From contig JALOBN010000027.1 of assembly GCA_023228245.1 (NCBI GenBank), positions 1 to 36,242 of the forward strand: 36,242 nucleotides of DNA. The letters are read 5' to 3'. Below, piece by piece: positions 3,828 to 28,913 of this stretch (its first letter is position 1; each line of letters starts with the position of its first letter). Origin of the DNA: Candidatus Pacearchaeota archaeon (GTDB taxonomy: Archaea > Nanoarchaeota > Nanoarchaeia > Pacearchaeales > GW2011-AR1). The position numbers and the translations under genes were made by a program. The notes under the pieces were generated by a model, which searched no databases, had not been told where the DNA came from, and saw only the letters and a list, made by a program, of their open reading frames with translations.

Positions 3828-4255
3828 GTGAATACCCTCCATTCAATACCAAGTGTTTCGAGAACTTTCTGCATCTTTGCAGACGGATTTCCCGTGATTA
3901 CGATCACGCGACTATGGAATGGGTAGAAGGTTCCATAGTAGGCAAGTTGCCCTATGGCCTGATAAATAACCGCGTCCTGATTTCCGTATTTAATTTCGAT
4001 TACACAAGCGGATGTTAGAACGTCTATTCTGCCGCTTTCCACGACAACCTGTTCCTGATGGTCTATTCCTTCGGCCCTCAAATGTTCGCAGAATTTGAAC
4101 TGTACAAGAGCCTCCCTATCGCGTAACTTGTAATGTTTCGATACCAATGAATTGTATTCCCGTCGCAAAACGCGCGCCCTCTTCTGTTCAAAGGCTATTT
4201 TTTCATGGAGCTTTAGGATCTCGGAAACGACAGGATCAGCCTCCAATGAGCCCAT
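3812..4255 (-). CDS. PD-(D/E)XK-fold nuclease-like protein, 147 aa
   Basis: After a charged helical N-terminus (1-48) comes a restriction-endonuclease-like core: Glu57 in a helix, Asp78 in SGRIDVL, and E-I-K at 87-89, followed by the helix AVIYQAIGQLAYYG. That order (E, D, ExK, then a Q-rich helix) is typical of PD-(D/E)XK proteins. An AAGGAG site precedes the ATG at 4253-4255. The gene overlaps the antirepressor gene by 20 bp and the DUF3102-like gene by 16 bp. The substrate is unknown; it may target DNA ends or host DNA. Confidence 0.65.
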   Translation of the reverse strand: MGSLEADPVVSEILKLHEKIAFEQKRARVLRREYNSLVSKHYKLRDREALVQFKFCEHLRAEGIDHQEQVVVESGRIDVLTSACVIEIKYGNQDAVIYQAIGQLAYYGTFYPFHSRVIVITGNPSAKMQKVLETLGIEWRVFTCIPI

Positions 4256-4718
4256 AGATCGCTCCTTCCTCGATTGCCTTCGTGATTTTCTCTCTGATGT
4301 AGACTAGGCCTTTGGGCGTGATGATGGTCATGCGGTTGACTATCATGCTCCCGTCCTCCGTTTCCGCGTTGGACATCCGTTCCTCCAGCTTCATCCGGCC
4401 CGCGTCAACATGCTCCTGTTTCGGGGCGTGGTAGTCCCAGTGAGTTCTCGGGTCACGCCGCTTCATTATCATCCAGGTGGAGCGTAGGAAGGCGTACAAC
4501 TGGGAAGGGCCAAGGTATTTTCCCGGAGCGATCTGGATCGAGAGCTCCTTGGCCGCCTCCCGGACCTCGTAGACCTTACCGCTCGAAACGATTGCGGCGC
4601 CAAGGTCTGCATTGGGTTTCATCGCGGCGATGGCGCCTTTCAACGCTTCGATAACGCGGCCACTTTGGGCAAGCGCGTTCTGCGCGTCCTCAAGGATGGA
4701 TAGGTGGTTGTCGCTCAT
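4236..4718 (-). CDS. Phage antirepressor C-terminal (KilAC/ANT) domain protein, 160 aa
   Basis: Residues about 48-145 match the ANT/KilAC domain: YEVREAAKELSIQIAPGKYL, then QLYAFLRSTWMIMKRRDP, and TIITPKGLVYIREKI. This domain is found at the C-terminus of P1/P22-type antirepressors. Here it is preceded only by a short helical region (1-40), without the usual BRO-N or AntA part. It is the first gene after a promoter and structured leader RNA (4719-4871), with GGAGG directly after the U-tract. This suggests it is controlled at the level of transcript elongation and acts in the lysis/lysogeny or early/late decision. Confidence 0.75.
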   Translation of the reverse strand: MSDNHLSILEDAQNALAQSGRVIEALKGAIAAMKPNADLGAAIVSSGKVYEVREAAKELSIQIAPGKYLGPSQLYAFLRSTWMIMKRRDPRTHWDYHAPKQEHVDAGRMKLEERMSNAETEDGSMIVNRMTIITPKGLVYIREKITKAIEEGAIYGLIGG

Positions 4719-4837
4719 TGCGCCTCCAACAAAAAAAGTCGGGCCACAGGACTGCGGGGGATGAATCCCGCGGGCGTTGGAGGTCGCCCTGTCCTATGGC
4801 CCGATCTCCTCCAATGTTGCCGGGCATCACTCCGGCA
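4719..4837 (-). ncRNA. Structured leader RNA, copy 1 (pseudoknot, three-way junction, U-tract) before the antirepressor gene
   Basis: Elements in RNA order: 5' hairpin P0 with 6-bp stem TGCCGG/CCGGCA and 8-nt loop (4837-4818); pseudoknot strand TTGGAGG (4814-4808); P1 strand (4804-4791) pairing with 4752-4739, 14 bp; P2 stem GGGCG/CGCCC with 8-nt loop ACCTCCAA (4789-4772); P3 stem GCGGG/CCCGC with 8-nt loop (4771-4754); seven T's (4737-4731); then GGAGG. The P2 loop CCTCCAA is complementary to the pseudoknot strand over 7 bases, and also to the Shine-Dalgarno TTGGAGG. The stem plus U-tract could terminate transcripts from the late operon and attenuate those from the promoter at 4843. A second copy lies at 28757-28879. 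Confidence 0.7.
4731..4804 (-). terminator. Intrinsic terminator / attenuator formed by P1 and U-tract of leader copy 1
   Basis: A 14-bp closing stem (4804-4791 with 4752-4739, one G-U pair) enclosing two small hairpins is followed by C and seven T's on the minus strand. It lies after the last lysis gene (stop at 4885) and before the antirepressor ATG, so it can end the late transcript as well as act inside the leader. Confidence 0.7.
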
Positions 4838-4842
4838 CGTTG

Positions 4843-4871
4843 AATATACTTCCTTTGGGTTCCGGTGTCAA
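4843..4871 (-). promoter_or_regulatory. Sigma70-type promoter for the antirepressor unit
   Basis: The -35 is TTGACA (4866-4871), the spacer is 17 bp and the -10 is TATATT (4843-4848). Initiation is expected at about 4836, on the first base pairs of the P0 hairpin. The distance from the -10 to P0 (5 bases) is the same as at the 28885-28913 promoter. Confidence 0.8.
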
Positions 4872-7292: not shown

Positions 7293-10200
7293 GCGTATAT
7301 TCCTATCTGTTCTATTTGCAGAATGACGGATGACGATGTCGGCGCAAGTAGATAGACGTTGTAGTCAAATTGGTCTCCCGAAACAGGAACGTCTATCATG
7401 CCAACGCGCTCGATGATTGAAGTCGATGGACCTCCAAGATAGATACCGTCCATCGGCGTCATGTCATCATAGTTTATGTCCCACGTAGTTCCAGTGGGCC
7501 TGAAACAGATAAAAGCGCAGGGCGTAATAGATGGTCCACCCTGTCCGTGCATCCTGTATTTCAGCTTCACACCGCGAACATTTGTATATCCATTGTTGAT
7601 TATGCCTTGCGTGTACCATGTATTCAGAGTAAACGACGTTACGCTAACAAGCTGGTAGACTGCATTGGCGTACTTCTCCCCGAAGTATTGCCCCATCGGA
7701 TAGCTGCCTTCGACAAGCGCCGCGTTCGGCGTTTGAAACAGGATCTTCCCCGTGGCGTCCTTGACCTGGAATCCTTCTGCCGCGTCCACGCTCGCCTCGC
7801 GCCCGTAGCTGTCCGTCCACACCGACGGGCTGTTGTAGTTGCGGCTACCCTGCGCGCTGAGGCGGATGTTCCGCGCCGCCGTCATCACCTCGTGCGGGTC
7901 GTAGTAGGGGCGGCCGGTGAGGTAGTGCGCCGTTGTCAAGGTCCGCGACGGGTCGAGTACGAAATCGCCCATGGCGCTGTCGGCCTCCGATCCTGCGCCG
8001 CCGTAATCATATCCAAAATAGATATTCCCCGAGATGTTTACGCCGGAACAATCTCCGCCAGCCATCCCCTCTGCGCATTCCACTCCATTAAGATATAAAG
8101 CGACTGATCCTGCCGTCGTGTTTGGTTTGCAGAGTATGCTATGCTTTACCTGTAGCGCCGCATTGGTTGTAAATGCAGGCGTTATCTTTTTAAAATATAC
8201 ACCAGCAGTCTTATACAGGTTGGCAACAATCCTATCAGTGGATTGATCGTAGTAGATCATCAAGCCACCGGTGGGACCTATAGCGTTGAAGAATATCCGT
8301 TTATTGCCAACCTCGGCGCAATCAAAGGTAAATCCGGGGCGAACAGAGAATGCTATATCGTCGTCAAATGGATACGCAAAGTCCAGGCTCCCCGCCGCAC
8401 GGGTCGAAGGCGTGAAGGGCGTGGCGTAGGGGGAGTTTTCAAGCTGTCCGTCGAGTATCCAGCATACACCAGCTACGTTTGATAGTAGCGTAAAATACCT
8501 TGCAGTATGGGCATCTGTGGTTCCGGATGTGGAAATATAATTTAGTCCGGGAGCTAGTGTCCACGAAGTATTTAGTCCCTGGTCTATAAAATCGCTCATT
8601 TCGATGCTTACAGCAAAGCCCGTTTCGCAATAAACCCACATGCTTCCCGAATAGGCCGTTGACGCGGAGAGGGATATTGATCTATGGACGGCTCCGCTTG
8701 CAGCACCGCTAAATGTTACTCTTGTCGCTGTTCTCCCGAGGGAAGCTACATATTCCAGGACTGCCGTAGCCCCGTTGATACAAGTTTTCCCTCCGGTTGC
8801 CGTTGACCAATCGGATGGGTATAGCGCCGCCAGCAGGTTCGTCGTCGCCTTCCACACGCCGACGGCTCCGCGCCCTGGCCACAGGCAACGCGGGTTCAGC
8901 ACCGACCCGATGTATGGCGGCTCAAACACGGTGCGCTTGCCGGGCAGGAGCTTAGGCATCAAGGTCCCAAAGCTCCCGTGCCAGGATAGCTCCGGCGTCT
9001 GGCAGTCAAGGAGGGCGTCGCCGTCAGGGAGGCGGTCGTCGTCGGTCGCGTCGTCGGCCTCGAACGACAGCTGTACGGAGCGGTTACCGATGAACTGGAA
9101 TTGTTCCGCGAGGTTCGTGGAAATGCTGTCCCATGGCCCCGTGGTATTGTTGCAGTAGGCGGACCCGACGTACTTCAAGCACATTTTGAACGACGCCGTT
9201 GACCATGCCTCGTCATAGACAAGCACGGCACGGCGCTTGCGGTCGTAGTCGGTATTGTAGGCGTAGAGAGACAGCGCCGCCTTGGTGGGCCATGCGTCTC
9301 CCTCGTGGACCACGCAGATATCAAACAGGGCATTGGTGAAGTACGCTTCCGGGACTGCGCACCCAGGGTTCCCCACGACGGGGTAAAGCCTTGCTTGCCG
9401 CGCATAGGAGTAGATCGCTTGGTAGTAGGCCTTGGTTGCATCAGATAGGGACGCCTCGTACTTCACTTCATCGACAAACAATCCGTCAACGCCAGGATAC
9501 AGCGAAACCCACGATGCAATCTCATCCTTGACGTTTTGCAGTGACTTGGCGGCGAACGTGGATGCGACGTATCCCAGGACCTTCACGCCAGCGCCCTGCA
9601 TCTTCTTGATGGCGTCGGTGTAGTTGCCGTCCGTCGATGTACCTGGCCCGCTCGACGGGTTGGCGACCACGTAGCACTGGATGCCCTGATGTTCCCGCGC
9701 CTGGAGGATGATCTGCGCCCAGTTGGCCTCAATGCCTCCGCCGGTCGGGTAGATGTAGAGCGGGATGAGCAAGGACGCTTCCGGGAGGACTACGGTTGCA
9801 GCCTGCGGGTCAACATAGGACCCGGACCCGGCCGCAAGGTTCGCGTTGCGAGTCCCGACCGGTTCGCCTTGCGTTGTGACGGCGTTTGCCGAATACGCCT
9901 CGATGCCCTCCAGGACATACTCGTAGATCGCGTCCCATGGGCGCTCGGTTACTTCGACAACCACGCACTTGTTGGACTGCCCAAGGAATGCAGCCTCGGT
10001 CTGGAGTACGATCGTGCCAAGGGCAACCGCTGTTCTAGATTCGAGGCGGTAGGTAAACGGAGCGTATTGATAATGCCGTTTGAGGCCGGAGGAAAGCCGC
10101 GTGGCATCCGCTTCCGTGGTCAAGTATCCGGCGTCCAGTTTCAAAAGCAGATCGTTGGACACAGTCTGCCGCGTGCGGTGTATCGTGCTTTTGACTATGG

Positions 10201-11221: not shown

Positions 11222-12960
11222 TTGTTTATCGCCTCCGCCGCCTTGATCTCATCGCGAATCAGGAGCGCGAAGTCCCGAAGATCCGAGATGTAGGCGCCCT
11301 GCGCGTTGACCGCCACGTTGATCGTCGTAGCGTGGTACGTTGCGGTCCCTGCCGTCGAAGTCGATCCGCCGGTGTTCGCCACGTACTGCTCACCGGACGC
11401 AGTCAGGTCCCCGAAGTCGATGGGTTCGAGGTATGTGGGGGTTGCGGTAGCCGCCGCAGTAGCCGCCGCTATGACTGCCGCGAGCTGCGCCGCAAGGTCC
11501 CCGGCGGTATCGCGGGATTTGTCTAATATGCCTTTTTGGAAAGTGTTGTAAACCCAGTCATTGACAACCTTGGAACTCCATACCAGGATCGTTCCAAGAA
11601 GCTGGAAAGGAAGGATGGCCGCCCTGATCGCCTTGCCTATTCCGTCGAACACGAAAATGATTGCATTGAAAACCGGCAACAGGAAGTTGTACGCCGATGC
11701 GAACAGATCGCAGAGGTAGCGGATGACGGGTCCGAACGCTTCAAGGATCGGCATTATGAACGCTCCAAGTGTCTGCCCGATGATGGACAGAGCGCCTATC
11801 AGCGGGGTAAGCAGGCTGTCTATCGTCGGCTCCAGCGTGGCGACAAACGAGCGCAGGATGACTCCCAGTGGGTCCATGATGATGCGCACAGTGTCGATGG
11901 AGGTTATGAGGCTGAGGAGGCTTGATCCGACGGATGAGATAATGCCTATGATCCTGGACAGATCCTGCGTGCCTTGCGACTGGTAGCCCTGCGATCCTGC
12001 GGAGGTCCCCCCGGCAAAGTCTTCGAGTCCTTCCTGGATGCTGTCCCCTATGCCGGTCAACAGGCTTTCAATCTGGTACTCTGGTCCTCCTCCTGCGTAT
12101 CCCATCCAGCCCTGGTCGGTACCATCTACTGTTTCGCCTGCCACTCCTGATCTAGACGTACCGGATACACCTCCGGCAACTGCCGTGCTGTTCCTGTTTA
12201 TGAAGTTCTGAATCGTTTCAATCGCGGATTCGGTGCGCTGGATTATTTCGGTATTCGCTGCCGACAGCTTCCGCGCTTCATCGTATGCCCCCTGCGCCAT
12301 CTGCATGGGGTATAGGTATGATGGTTGGTTTCCAGATTTTGTGTAGGCCTGCGATGCTTCATAGGCAAGCTGGCCCTTTGCGGCCTCGGAGGCTGATAAC
12401 GCGCTGACCTTGGCCCTCGCGTCGGCAAGATCATTTTGTTTTGCCGTAAGTGTTTCGGTAGCCTCGGCTAGGTCCTTCGTTCGCTTGATCTCTGTAAGCT
12501 GTTCCGTACTCGCATACTTGATCATTAGGGCGTCGAACTCGCGTCCAAACTCTACGAGTTTTTTGGTGGCGAGATCGGTCGGACTTATCAGGTCGATAAA
12601 GAAGGACCTGAACGGATCCAGCGCGGTCGCTATCGCTCCACCAATGCTTGCCTTCAGACTGTCAACCGCGCGCTGAAAGTTGGCCGCAGAACCCGGTGTC
12701 TTCGCCATCTCGGGATTCAGCTTGATAAAAGCGTCTTCACACTCCGCGGCTCCCTGGTAGACCTTGAGCAGCGCCATGGTTACGCCCGCGAGCGCGCCCG
12801 CGCCCATCATCGTGGACGCGAGCTTGTTGACACCCTCCATGCCCTTGGTGAGGTCCTTCATCTTGCCGGTCAGACCTTCGGCGTTGGCTTTGGCCGAGTC
12901 TATCCCGGCCTTGCTTTCATCTTTTGAGCGGATTCTGTAATCAAGTACGGGCGTTGCCAT
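11218..12960 (-). CDS. Tail tape measure protein, 580 aa
   Basis: The composition is rich in Ala, Gly, Ile and Leu, with long helices. There is an N-terminal coiled region (SKAGIDSAKANAEGLTGKMK), several hydrophobic stretches near residues 340-470 (IIGIISSVGSSLLSLITSID, FIMPILEAFGPVIRYLCDLF) and an Ala-rich segment near 495-512. It lies directly downstream of the frameshifted tail chaperones and upstream of the tail tip gene, the invariant position of tape measure genes. The length would predict a fairly short siphophage tail if the usual length-to-residue proportionality holds. GGAG site upstream of the ATG at 12958-12960. Confidence 0.85.
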   Translation of the reverse strand: MATPVLDYRIRSKDESKAGIDSAKANAEGLTGKMKDLTKGMEGVNKLASTMMGAGALAGVTMALLKVYQGAAECEDAFIKLNPEMAKTPGSAANFQRAVDSLKASIGGAIATALDPFRSFFIDLISPTDLATKKLVEFGREFDALMIKYASTEQLTEIKRTKDLAEATETLTAKQNDLADARAKVSALSASEAAKGQLAYEASQAYTKSGNQPSYLYPMQMAQGAYDEARKLSAANTEIIQRTESAIETIQNFINRNSTAVAGGVSGTSRSGVAGETVDGTDQGWMGYAGGGPEYQIESLLTGIGDSIQEGLEDFAGGTSAGSQGYQSQGTQDLSRIIGIISSVGSSLLSLITSIDTVRIIMDPLGVILRSFVATLEPTIDSLLTPLIGALSIIGQTLGAFIMPILEAFGPVIRYLCDLFASAYNFLLPVFNAIIFVFDGIGKAIRAAILPFQLLGTILVWSSKVVNDWVYNTFQKGILDKSRDTAGDLAAQLAAVIAAATAAATATPTYLEPIDFGDLTASGEQYVANTGGSTSTAGTATYHATTINVAVNAQGAYISDLRDFALLIRDEIKAAEAINN

Positions 12961-20213: not shown

Positions 20214-20836
20214 ATCGAACTCCTGGTTGAGATGTATGTGTCCGCGATGTCCACGCGCTTGGACTCGCTTTGATTCTGCGTGATGGCTTCGGGGTCGCGC
20301 GCAGGGGCAGCGCCCTTTGTGCCTTCCGCTTCCTCATGCGAGGCCAGCATCTTGGCGATGGCGGAGAGGGGCGCGCCTCTACGAGACGCGGCATCCCTGA
20401 GAATCGTTGCCGAAGCGTTGGCGGGCACGGGCACGGCGGAAACCTCCAGGAGCTCCCAGGCCTTGTACGTGCGCACGCCGTCTATGATGTCGATCTTCTC
20501 CATCTCGGGAAGGAACCCTATGGAGAACGAGGAGGCGAAACCCTCGTCGAACAGGTATTTGATTTCCTGTCCCAGTTGAGTATCCGCGAACTGTATGTCA
20601 AGCAACAGCGCCTTGTCAGACGATTTCGCGCTCAGGGGCTTGCCAATGATGGCGCGGACGCTCCAGTCGTGGTCCGCCAGGATCGATCCGTATTTCAGGA
20701 AGTGGTCCAGATTGGTGACTCCGCCGGGTAGGACGCGCTCACCCTGCCGGTCAAGGTCGTCAGTGGTGGCCGCAATGGTGTATCGGTTTTCCTTGGCGTC
20801 CTTTTTAACCATGACGCCAGATAGGTATTTGTTCAT
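20210..20836 (-). CDS. HK97-type prohead protease, 208 aa
   Basis: The start at 20834-20836 follows GAGGGGG and overlaps the portal stop (ATGA); the longer frame to 21016 lies inside the portal gene. Conserved segments are DRQGERVLPGGV near 29-40, ILADHDW with His56, and SSFSIGFLP with the likely nucleophile Ser105. These are the His and Ser of the S78 (HK97 gp4) peptidase family, which trims capsid delta domains during head maturation. The C-terminal 45 residues are polar and probably self-cleaved. Confidence 0.88.
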   Translation of the reverse strand: MNKYLSGVMVKKDAKENRYTIAATTDDLDRQGERVLPGGVTNLDHFLKYGSILADHDWSVRAIIGKPLSAKSSDKALLLDIQFADTQLGQEIKYLFDEGFASSFSIGFLPEMEKIDIIDGVRTYKAWELLEVSAVPVPANASATILRDAASRRGAPLSAIAKMLASHEEAEGTKGAAPARDPEAITQNQSESKRVDIADTYISTRSSI

Positions 20837-26694: not shown

Positions 26695-27998
26695 CTGTCT
26701 ACCCCTTGCGCAACACTGCGCTCGTGATACGGTTTTGGCGTGTACTCTTTTTCCGAATTCTCAAAGCGCACGTACTCCTTGAGAAACGTCAGGTCAAATA
26801 TCGCCGTTGGCCCTGTCCTGTTTTTTGCGATGTTGCAATGCACAGTGCATCCAGTCTCCGTGTCGTCGCTCTTGTGCATAAGGATTACTACGTCAGCGTC
26901 CTCCTCAATCTCCCCGGACTGCCTCATGTCGGCAAGGCAAGGGGCGCCCTCGCTGTTGTTGCGGTTGACCTGGGAAAGCACGACGATGGGAATGTGCAGC
27001 TCGCGGGCCAGTCCTTTGAGCATCTTGGATATCTCGCCCACGCGCTCCCATTTAGGTTGCCGTGATTCCCCGTGTTTCAGGAGCGTCAGGTAGTCCACGT
27101 AGATTATGGACGCCCCTAGGCGGCGCATTTTGCGAGCCCGTGACATCATGATACCCACTGGGATGTTTGGCGTATCGTCGATCCATAGCGGGGTTTCACG
27201 CAGGCGTTCTCCAGATTCGAGGAGACGGCTCATGTCGGTTGCCTTCATGTATCCGTTCATCATCGCCATAGTGTTGACCGATCCGACGGACCCGAGGGCT
27301 CGTACCGTCATAAGCTCCCCGGACATTTCGGCGGAAAAGAAACCTACACTGTTACCGTCGGCAGCCTGTTTGATTGCCATAGTCAAGGCGAATGCTGTCT
27401 TTCCAACCGATGGCCTGGCGCCTATAATAATAAGCTGCTCCGGTTGGAATCCTCCTGTTGCGTTGTCCAGTGCCGAAAATCCGGTGGCAACCCCGGAAAG
27501 TTTTCCGCGTGCCGAAACTCTGGCCTCAATAAGTTTGAGAGTCGGTATGAGGAGCTCGCCTATAGACCTTATTCCTGTATCCCGGTTCATCACCATTCCC
27601 GTTAGGCGCTGCTCGATCTCTCCTACAAGGTCGTCCGCTGTTTTGGTCGCATCGTCCAGTAAGCCCTTGACCTCATGCATCATGCGCACCACCTGGCGCT
27701 TGCGCGATAGATCGCGTACCTTACCGGCGTAATACGCTATGTTCGCCGATGTCCATGAGTCCATGGTTGATACCATGACGGACTCTTCCGAGGCTCCGGA
27801 GTCCATGAGTTTTGACGCTATAGTCTTCGCGTCGGCCTTAACTCCTTGGCTTATGGTGTTGGATATTACGGCAAATATGGCCGCATTCCTGGTGTTATCG
27901 AAGTCGGAAGTGGAAAGGTCCAGGCCGTCAAGCGCATCGTTATCGCATATTAACATCTCGAGCGTGCGCCATTCGGCCTCGTGATCTGACAACTTCAT
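26691..27998 (-). CDS. dnaB: Replicative DNA helicase, DnaB family, 435 aa
   Basis: The N-terminal DnaB domain occupies about residues 5-95. The RecA-like ATPase has Walker A in IIIGARPSVGKTAF (Gly193 to Thr201), Walker B near ASIIYVDYLTLL, the VVLSQVNRNNS loop and GEIEEDADVVILMHK. It unwinds DNA at the fork and would be loaded by the initiator encoded just upstream. The start at 27996-27998 has GGAGG upstream and an ATGA overlap. The phage lacks its own polymerase, so it must recruit host polymerase. Confidence 0.93.
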   Translation of the reverse strand: MKLSDHEAEWRTLEMLICDNDALDGLDLSTSDFDNTRNAAIFAVISNTISQGVKADAKTIASKLMDSGASEESVMVSTMDSWTSANIAYYAGKVRDLSRKRQVVRMMHEVKGLLDDATKTADDLVGEIEQRLTGMVMNRDTGIRSIGELLIPTLKLIEARVSARGKLSGVATGFSALDNATGGFQPEQLIIIGARPSVGKTAFALTMAIKQAADGNSVGFFSAEMSGELMTVRALGSVGSVNTMAMMNGYMKATDMSRLLESGERLRETPLWIDDTPNIPVGIMMSRARKMRRLGASIIYVDYLTLLKHGESRQPKWERVGEISKMLKGLARELHIPIVVLSQVNRNNSEGAPCLADMRQSGEIEEDADVVILMHKSDDTETGCTVHCNIAKNRTGPTAIFDLTFLKEYVRFENSEKEYTPKPYHERSVAQGVDR

Positions 27999-28756
27999 GA
28001 TGCCTCCTTGGGCCTGGGTGGGGACCACGGGTATCCGCATTTCGGGCAAATGCTCGTGGCGTCCTGGAAATCGGTGTCGCAGTTTTCGCAGTGCTTGACG
28101 CGCGTGTCGGTTTTGGGCTTCTTGGGAGATAAAGGCATGTCGCGTTGAATCCAGTTTCGGATCGTCTTGTAATGGTCCTTGTATTTTGTAGCAGGGAATT
28201 TATTTCCTACTCCGTTGGAAAATTCATCTCGCTTTTTGGTGTACGCTTCTTCCCCAAAGTCGGCAATAAGTTTGTCTCGCTGGGCCTCTGTTAAAAACGT
28301 ATCCGGTGCTACTTCTATTTTTTGAGGTTTTGGTTTTGGTTGTATACCGACTTCCGTTCCATTCAATTCAATTCCATTCAATTCAATTCTATTAGGCGTT
28401 ACTGGTATTGTAATTGTATTGTACTCGTCCGGTACTGGTAATTTTGACGGCTTCGGCTTCTGGATATACTGATATATATTCCAATTCGGGTGATGCATAA
28501 ACCATTCCCCGTCAACAAAATACGAACGCATTAGCCCGCACGAGTTTAATTTTTCAAGATCGGCCTTGAATGTCTCGGCTTTGTAATTATTTAGCGGATG
28601 AACCCTTGCTTTGAATAAAGATACAGATACTTTACACCTACCGGAATCGTCCGATTGCGTTATCATATATACATACAATTTGAATTGAGCCGGAGTAAGC
28701 GACTGCACTTGCTCGCTGTCCCATATGCCAGGATCAATCATGCGCTTACGTGCCAT
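27995..28756 (-). CDS. Replication initiation protein with C-terminal zinc ribbon, 253 aa
   Basis: The N-terminus (MARKRMIDPGIWDSEQVQSL followed by TPAQFKLYVYMITQSDDSGR) is the winged-helix start typical of phage replisome organisers. Next come HPNWNIYQYIQ near 88-98, a repetitive linker (RIELNGIELNGTEVG), a DnaD-like or helicase-loading region, and a C-terminal C-x2-C...C-x2-C ribbon (HCENCDTDFQDATSICPKCG). It sits just before DnaB with an ATGA overlap. GGAGG follows directly on the U-tract of leader RNA copy 2. The repeats inside the gene may be the origin. Confidence 0.8.
   Translation of the reverse strand: MARKRMIDPGIWDSEQVQSLTPAQFKLYVYMITQSDDSGRCKVSVSLFKARVHPLNNYKAETFKADLEKLNSCGLMRSYFVDGEWFMHHPNWNIYQYIQKPKPSKLPVPDEYNTITIPVTPNRIELNGIELNGTEVGIQPKPKPQKIEVAPDTFLTEAQRDKLIADFGEEAYTKKRDEFSNGVGNKFPATKYKDHYKTIRNWIQRDMPLSPKKPKTDTRVKHCENCDTDFQDATSICPKCGYPWSPPRPKEAS
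28359..28440. other. Repeats inside the initiator gene, putative replication origin
   Basis: Plus-strand CCATTCAATTCAATT occurs twice in tandem (28359-28373 and 28374-28388), followed by an AT-rich stretch and two copies of TACTGGTA (28400-28407 and 28433-28440). In lambda-type phages the origin is a set of iterons inside the initiator gene O, so this is the best candidate for an origin here. The repeats also encode RIELNG units in the protein linker. Confidence 0.45.
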
Positions 28757-28879
28757 GCCGCCTCCAAAAAAAGAGACGGGCCATTGAGCGTGAAGGTGGT
28801 ATTCCTTCGGCGTGCACGGTCGCCTGCTCAATAGCCCGTTTCCTTCCGTGCATAACTCGCCCGGCTACCACCCCGGGCG
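28757..28879 (-). ncRNA. Structured leader RNA, copy 2 (pseudoknot, three-way junction, U-tract) before the replication initiator
   Basis: Elements in RNA order: P0 hairpin CGCCCGG/CCGGGCG with 8-nt loop (28879-28858); pseudoknot strand TGCACGG (28852-28846); P1 strand (28839-28826) pairing with 28789-28776, 14 bp; P2 stem GGCG/CGCC with 8-nt loop ACCGTGCA (28824-28809); P3 stem GAAGG/CCTTC with 7-nt loop (28808-28792); T-tract of seven (28772-28766); then GGAGG at once. The P2 loop CCGTGCA pairs with TGCACGG over 7 bases. The sequence differs from copy 1 (4719-4837) in every helix, yet each helix is kept. Confidence 0.7.
28766..28839 (-). terminator. Intrinsic terminator / attenuator formed by P1 and U-tract of leader copy 2
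   Basis: A 14-bp stem (28839-28826 with 28789-28776, one U-G pair) encloses two short hairpins and is followed by CTC and seven T's on the minus strand. The next gene's GGAGG begins at the last T, so terminator and ribosome site are merged. Confidence 0.65.
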
Positions 28880-28884
28880 TCTTA

Positions 28885-28913
28885 AGTATACCACTACCAC
28901 TTAGGCAAGTCAA
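28885..28913 (-). promoter_or_regulatory. Sigma70-type promoter for the replication and late genes
   Basis: The -35 is TTGACT (28908-28913), the spacer is 17 bp and the -10 is TATACT (28885-28890), so 10 of 12 consensus positions. It overlaps the end of the upstream gene. Initiation is expected at about 28878, on the first base pairs of the P0 hairpin, the same geometry as at 4843-4871. Confidence 0.78.

Follow-up and report, generated by a model that had tools for sequence, protein, structure and literature searches.

Structured leader RNAs with a pseudoknot and a terminator-like closing helix at the two gene blocks of an uncharacterised phage

Relation to described RNAs

The C4 RNA of phages P1 and P7 and the CI RNA of P4 are immunity RNAs. 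C4, an antisense RNA, precedes an antirepressor gene, and Rfam includes its family. In the window analysed here, a contig of 36,242 nucleotides assigned to Candidatus Pacearchaeota archaeon (JALOBN010000027.1, assembly GCA_023228245.1), the first of two leader RNAs (copy 1) is likewise structured and precedes an antirepressor gene. In contrast to C4, the leaders have no match in Rfam, with no C4 RNA found in scans of the window and its two loci, and other members precede replication or structural genes.

In the guanidine-IV riboswitch (GGAM-1), formation of the full terminator stem is reportedly opposed by a kissing loop, which promotes readthrough (PMC11611296), and one tested construct is described as having a stem followed by seven U residues and the start codon (PMC11611296, PMC7736828). 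Complementarity between loops is supported in the present leaders, where it may oppose termination. On the other hand, their terminator-like helix holds two hairpins, and a second pseudoknot is predicted in addition. Furthermore, guanidine-IV has highly conserved ligand-binding loop nucleotides, whereas the loops of the hairpins designated P0, P2, and P3 here differ between members.

The putL and putR RNAs of phage HK022, as described in PMC9378689, resemble the leader in being phage RNAs near early promoters that occur in two copies per genome and have no dedicated protein. A put-like location just after the promoters of long operons is also found here, where the promoters are taken to be early from the genes that they precede. 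Compared by architecture, however, the 73 nt of put form two stem-loops in a V shape, whereas the leader combines a three-way junction, two long-range contacts, and a tail like that of a terminator. The EAR and conAn2 RNAs are like the leader in heading a long operon (PMC8955417), a comparison by position; conAn requires the protein ConAn1.

No Rfam family reached the gathering threshold at the leaders in the sequences scanned (the window and loci L098, L217, L177, and L179), and when the two window loci were scanned permissively, the matches were weak and unrelated (E values of 1.4 to 3.3). Those Rfam 15 scans returned no guanidine-IV match, a result that is meaningful only if Rfam 15 includes that family. 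The view of an earlier note on this DNA that the element belongs to no known class holds for Rfam 15. Among the matches listed from the open-licence PMC literature on phage leaders, kissing loops, and pseudoknots, a scope that excludes most subscription papers and preprints, no such RNA was described. As far as we could search, the leader RNA is a new motif.

The two leaders and their gene blocks

The earlier note had described, at two sites, an ordered leader in which a promoter is followed by a hairpin (P0), a strand of 7 nt, a helix of 14 bp (P1) with two hairpins (P2 and P3) inside, seven U residues, and a Shine-Dalgarno (SD) sequence. This order was borne out in both copies, which lie on the minus strand and end at a start codon (Table 1), as were the near-consensus quality of the promoters, the equal 5-nt spacing between the -10 element and P0, and the pseudoknot (pk1), in which the 7-nt strand can pair with all of the P2 loop but its first A. 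Reading of the sequences also verified the both-sided changes claimed between the copies, which affect four P1 pairs and four pseudoknot pairs. A purine-rich linker lies between the 7-nt strand and P1 in both leaders. For copy 1 and copy 2 alike, none of 200 dinucleotide shuffles reached an energy as low as that of the real fold (z = -5.02 and -4.50, respectively), and the score in the descriptor scan was 104.5 for each copy. Both elements are real structured leader RNAs, and they are very probably cis-regulatory.

Table 1. Features of the two window leaders and composition of the leaders of L098 and L050
Feature	Position	Strand	Details
Copy 1 promoter	4843..4871	-	TTGACA-17-TATATT; 11/12 consensus positions
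Copy 1 P0	4818..4837	-	6-bp hairpin, 8-nt loop AGUGAUGC, 5 nt past -10
Copy 1 pk1 5′ strand	4808..4814	-	UUGGAGG
Copy 1 P1 5′ strand	4791..4804	-	UCGGGCCAUAGGAC; half of 14-bp helix
Copy 1 P2	4772..4789	-	GGGCG/CGCCC, loop A+CCUCCAA = ACCUCCAA
Copy 1 pk1 3′ strand	4783-4777	-	CCUCCAA, within P2 loop
Copy 1 P3	4754..4771	-	GCGGG/CCCGC, loop AUUCAUCC
Copy 1 P1 3′ strand	4739..4752	-	GUCCUGUGGCCCGA
Copy 1 U7 tract	4731..4737	-	C before U7
Copy 1 SD region	4719..4730	-	GUUGGAGGCGCA; ATG at 4718
First gene after copy 1	4236..4718	-	KilAC/ANT antirepressor-domain protein (PF03374)
Copy 2 promoter	28885..28913	-	TTGACT-17-TATACT; 10/12 consensus positions
Copy 2 P0	28858..28879	-	7-bp hairpin, loop GGUGGUAG, 5 nt past -10
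Copy 2 pk1 5′ strand	28846..28852	-	UGCACGG
Copy 2 P1 5′ strand	28826..28839	-	ACGGGCUAUUGAGC; half of 14-bp helix
Copy 2 P2	28809..28824	-	GGCG/CGCC, loop A+CCGUGCA = ACCGUGCA
Copy 2 pk1 3′ strand	28819-28813	-	CCGUGCA, within P2 loop
Copy 2 P3	28792..28808	-	GAAGG/CCUUC, loop AAUACCA
Copy 2 P1 3′ strand	28776..28789	-	GCUCAAUGGCCCGU
Copy 2 U7 tract	28766..28772	-	CUC before U7
Copy 2 SD	28765-28761	-	GGAGG; ATG at 28756
First gene after copy 2	27995..28756	-	Phage replication initiation protein (phrog_1408), then DnaB
L098 leader			TTGACA-17-TATGCT, P0, CUGGGGGG, 16-bp P1, P2 loop GG+CCUCCCAG, P3, UUCUGUUGCGAGG-AUG
L050 leader			TTGCTC-17-TAAAAT, P0, UAGACG, 16-bp P1, P2 loop CGUCUA, P3, U-rich tail

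The P2 loop of copy 1 together with the next base (4783-4776) is also complementary over 8 nt to the SD region of the same leader (4730-4723, minus strand). The SD region is thereby an alternative partner for the P2 loop, a rival to the pk1 strand, that copy 2 does not have.

According to the list of open reading frames, all plausible genes of the window lie on the minus strand, as does its sole tRNA. The two leaders head the two long gene blocks of this phage, one each. In the copy 2 block, the replication initiation and DnaB genes are followed by terminase, portal (PF04860), capsid (PF05065), and endolysin genes. The copy 1 block would continue past the window start to about 28.9 kb, provided that the window is an opened circular genome; the DnaB protein of the window is also listed on a contig of 36,256 bases. 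Each leader is probably a switch that sets whether its block is transcribed.

Between the early and late genes of the copy 2 block, just upstream of the small terminase open reading frame, there is a strong hairpin on the minus strand (24872-24843, -20.5 kcal/mol) with the tail UCUUUGUCU. The next promoter-like site past it on the same strand is at 20619 and agrees at 9/12 positions. Elsewhere in the window, a small, possibly ribbon-helix-helix-like gene (3053-2853, minus strand), whose protein had no match in Pfam or PHROG, is preceded by a near-consensus promoter that ends about 7 nt before the ATG, so that its mRNA would be leaderless. A like arrangement of promoter and ATG was seen at another small gene in the phage of L050 (L223, near position 12890, minus strand).

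Further members and a second long-range contact

Scanning of 80 of 91 TerL relatives yielded the leaders of L098 and of L122, L125, and L126, and a scan with the replication initiator, covering 79 loci with a MARKRM-type initiator (50 viral and 29 genomic), yielded one new member, L050. The TerL of L098 is 75% identical to that of the window. The L098 leader lies upstream of a replisome organiser gene (PF09681) and DnaB, and in its tail after P1, UUCUGUU, the longest U run is two. The L050 leader is followed by a small open reading frame and then by the initiator gene, and one leader copy was detected in the 31,968 bases of that phage. These two and the window copies have a common plan in unlike sequence. 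The comparison supports a plan in which a promoter is followed by P0 near +1, pk1, a P1 of 14-16 bp around P2 and P3, a contact between P0 and P3, a U-rich tail, and a gene start.

The pk1 descriptor, with terms for P1, P2, P3, pk1, promoter, P0, and SD, was written after the window copies had been seen and was therefore not blind; it gave the four members scores of 95.2-109.2. The top score across five Markov-1 replicates of 3.07 Mb was 81.2, and the best other real match, a tandem repeat in L038, scored 85.0. A first descriptor, without the U-tract, had failed to detect copy 1 and had placed several GC-rich matches above L050, which came seventh; the revised version was made afterwards. With the helices of the four members aligned in register from the loop ends, the paired cells were 56/56 in P1, 16/16 in P2, 12/12 in P3, 24/24 in P0, and 24/24 in pk1, full pairing in L098 and L050 being partly by construction because the search demanded it; the Markov controls are the test. 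Both-sided differences were present at 14/14, 3/4, 3/3, 5/6, and 5/6 positions, respectively. The helices and the pseudoknot are thus kept with different letters in L098 and L050 beyond the Markov controls, which supports the selection on RNA structure that had been proposed from the two copies. The family is small, with four members on three phage contigs. A covariance model of the two window copies, which the earlier note had suggested as a check, gave low scores for L050 (18.2 bits, E = 0.015) and L098 (13.9 bits, E = 0.16), with L050 out of register; common descent as against convergence is unproven owing to these scores and the misalignment.

A second contact, missed by the earlier note and first noticed by eye in the four members, is complementarity between the P0 loop and the P3 loop. 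It consists of GAUG/CAUC in copy 1 (4 bp), UGGUA/UACCA in copy 2, GGGC/GCCC in L098, and UAGCG/CGCUA in L050. Taken singly, neither the weak copy 1 pairing (p = 0.16) nor that of L098 (p = 0.17) is significant; the combined shuffle p for the four members was 0.003. The P0 loop of L098 is an equally good match to the P3 loop of copy 1 and also matches 4 bases of its own P2 loop.

Before this contact was noticed, L122 and L125/L126 had already turned up with descriptors combining P1, pk1, and a T run or a promoter, a stem, and a T run. Their leaders are located after TerL, and a portal gene (phrog_145) is next in L126. L122 and L126 both have perfect P0-P3 loop complementarity of 6 bp (GCAAAG/CUUUGC in L122 and CCAUAG/CUAUGG in L126), with two both-sided changes between the two leaders, whose identity over 200 bases is 94%. 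For the six leaders, the combined shuffle p was 1.3e-5, or 2.1e-4 with L122 and L126 counted once, and among the 720 ways of assigning P3 loops to P0 loops, the true one alone reached the observed sum. A loop-contact scan used a promoter, a P0 near +1, complementary loops, and P1 as its terms, leaving out pk1, U-tract, and SD. It ranked the six leaders first with scores of 75.5-84.4, by a small margin for the lowest member, followed by the GC-rich L229 at 74.3 as the next real match and a maximum of 73.8 in eight Markov replicates of 4.49 Mb; it was written once all six were known, and L316-L329 were left out. Because the interior of L122 and L126 has a different predicted minimum-energy fold, with a pk1 of only 6 and 5 bp, respectively, we count these two as cousins of the four members.

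The best-ranked TerL match among 50,697 phage records was 34.0% identical (from the best 20 of 1729 matches), all matches being below 60%, and the best 120 of 1574 database relatives of TerL were 46-80% identical. The nearest relatives occur on JGI and Logan contigs, with an initiator of 65% identity on an 18.4-kb contig (P0002) and a TerL of 80% identity (P0082). DnaB and the antirepressor gene, used as single-protein viral queries, gave no relative. The pk1 descriptor detected no leader in the 21 new loci among 22 derived from DnaB or in 80 of at least 583 helicase-methylase loci. The same was true of the loci of five TerL matches (with wider flanks for three) from GTDB genome samples, which were searched for TerL only (0/6, 0/296, 3/398, and 2/398). 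Eight stretches (6 + 2) from the phage-record collection were also scanned, with no leader found. Searches by blastn with five leader queries against INPHARED gave no matches or only short, weak ones, and an exact pattern of the P1 and P2 letters common to both copies matched 0 stretches. A pattern of the P1 end, T7, and SD returned 17 stretches, which by eye resembled ordinary terminators preceding genes. In a crude scan, position 5262 of L071 equalled copy 2 (21.5 each); it was dropped, as the complement follows directly after the P1 5′ strand and no promoter was seen.

A leader of another type was observed on the plus strand of L186 (position 2618) and L187 (position 14680), which correspond to L139 and L150. 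It consists of TTGACA-16-TATGGT, overlapping stems GGTCGAAGT/ACTTCGACC and CCGCC/GGCGG, and T6, followed by a gene start, and looks like a different attenuator. In L008 and L010, a similar, apparently structured stretch precedes the MARKRM-type initiator gene, just upstream of position 10001.

Attenuation and competing explanations

We infer, with a probability of roughly one half, that the leader is a cis-acting transcription attenuator, set by the order of folding and by factors that favour or block its 5′ contacts. P1 and the U-rich tail would constitute an intrinsic terminator. P0, pk1, and the P0-P3 contact could form ahead of the synthesis of the P1 3′ strand, and these early contacts would tie the 5′ end to P2 and P3, hinder the winding of P1, and thereby let RNA polymerase read through. 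If the 5′ contacts were prevented, P1 would close first and transcription would stop. A protein, an antisense RNA, or the speed of the polymerase may govern these contacts. The proposed logic resembles that described for the guanidine-IV riboswitch. P2 may stack on pk1 in a column of about 12 bp alongside the 14-bp P1, the 7 bp of pk1 being bridged by a single A.

The first 8 bases past P1 contain 7 and 6 T residues in the window copies, 5 in L098, 7 in L050, 7 in L122, and 6 in L126, and a T run of at least four begins within 3 nt of P1 in five of the six leaders, L098 being the exception. An SD-like sequence and a start codon lie within 45 bases of P1 in all leaders except L122 (5/6). With a U-rich tail in six of six leaders and a gene start near P1 in five, the simplest reading places a terminator ahead of the gene. 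In a nested model of transcripts ending before the P1 3′ strand, pk1 was the favoured helix in the window copies, with mean pair probabilities of 0.69 and 0.97, and the value was zero in both with P1 complete. As counter-evidence, the nested model gave no preference for pk1 before P1 in L098 (0.012) and L050 (0.0). P1 and pk1 may compete, although the two look sterically compatible. Of the possibilities that had been raised earlier, namely an attenuator, a riboswitch, and a put-like RNA, the attenuator fits best, although sequence by itself cannot decide. A metabolite riboswitch is less likely, and a small-molecule ligand unlikely, since the loop letters are unlike between members and not conserved.

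Another reading, which we consider unlikely, is that the leader is a processive antitermination RNA like HK022 put and Bacillus EAR, which as it emerges would bind RNA polymerase and confer readthrough of pauses and terminators across the whole operon. The copies lie directly after the promoters of two long blocks whose plausible genes, by the open reading frame list, are all on one strand, and putL is likewise described as lying near +1 of an early promoter with no dedicated protein (PMC9378689). The hairpin at 24872-24843 would be a candidate site within the copy 2 block, the next promoter-like site coming only at 20619. However, under a stricter script the coding strand of the window has no more than 2 sites that resemble terminators. 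A looser scan listed 10 on the minus strand, and the totals (13 versus 16.4 and 24 versus 18.6 in shuffled sequence) were not clearly above the controls. This scarcity of strong sites speaks mildly against both the put and the conAn/EAR readings. Also against antitermination are the single copy detected in the phage of L050, the two stem-loops and 73 nt of put, which are unlike the leader, and the U-tract after P1, which would have no role. Rather unlikely, too, is an element for 5′-end stability and translation, in which P0 and the pseudoknot would shield the mRNA from 5′-dependent decay and the U-rich stretch would aid ribosome binding. P0 starts 5-7 nt past the -10 element in all six leaders, which would place the 5′ end within a hairpin; the U-rich tail adjoins the SD in the window copies, L098 keeps the structure without a U run, and the 8-nt complementarity of the copy 1 P2 loop to its own SD would suit such a function. 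Nevertheless, that complementarity is, by eye, missing in copy 2, L122, and L126, and a plain 5′ hairpin would be sufficient, which leaves two long-range contacts and a terminator-like closing helix unexplained.

A small RNA that ends at the U-tract and acts in trans on other leaders, for example as an immunity RNA like C4 or P4 CI, is improbable. Transcription from the promoter to the terminator would yield a free RNA about 110 nt long, and copy 1 precedes an antirepressor-domain gene; on the other hand, the leaders match neither C4 nor another Rfam family, the loop sequences of the two copies are unlike, and action in cis is suggested by the start codon and SD-like sequence that five of six leaders have no more than 45 bases downstream. 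A recent duplication with chance pairing and no function would account for the many letters that the window copies have in common, chiefly around the P1 base, P2, and SD. This is very improbable in view of two further members of unlike sequence, of which the Markov nulls fall short.

If the attenuator reading is right, an unrecognised structured RNA controls whole phage operons and, with only its fold kept, is missed by sequence searches. It would also be a small natural system for testing whether termination can be decided by the order of folding and by contacts between loops, and a clear argument for descriptor searches of viral metagenomes. A bolder proposal, unlikely as it stands, is that the device is a new phage RNA class that acts by topology and not by letters, in which early contacts would ring the 5′ end, block the terminator, and license a whole operon without a phage protein, and which would be kept in unrelated phages. 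If that were true, one such device would drive the two halves of a phage genome and persist across phages although hardly any of its sequence is conserved.
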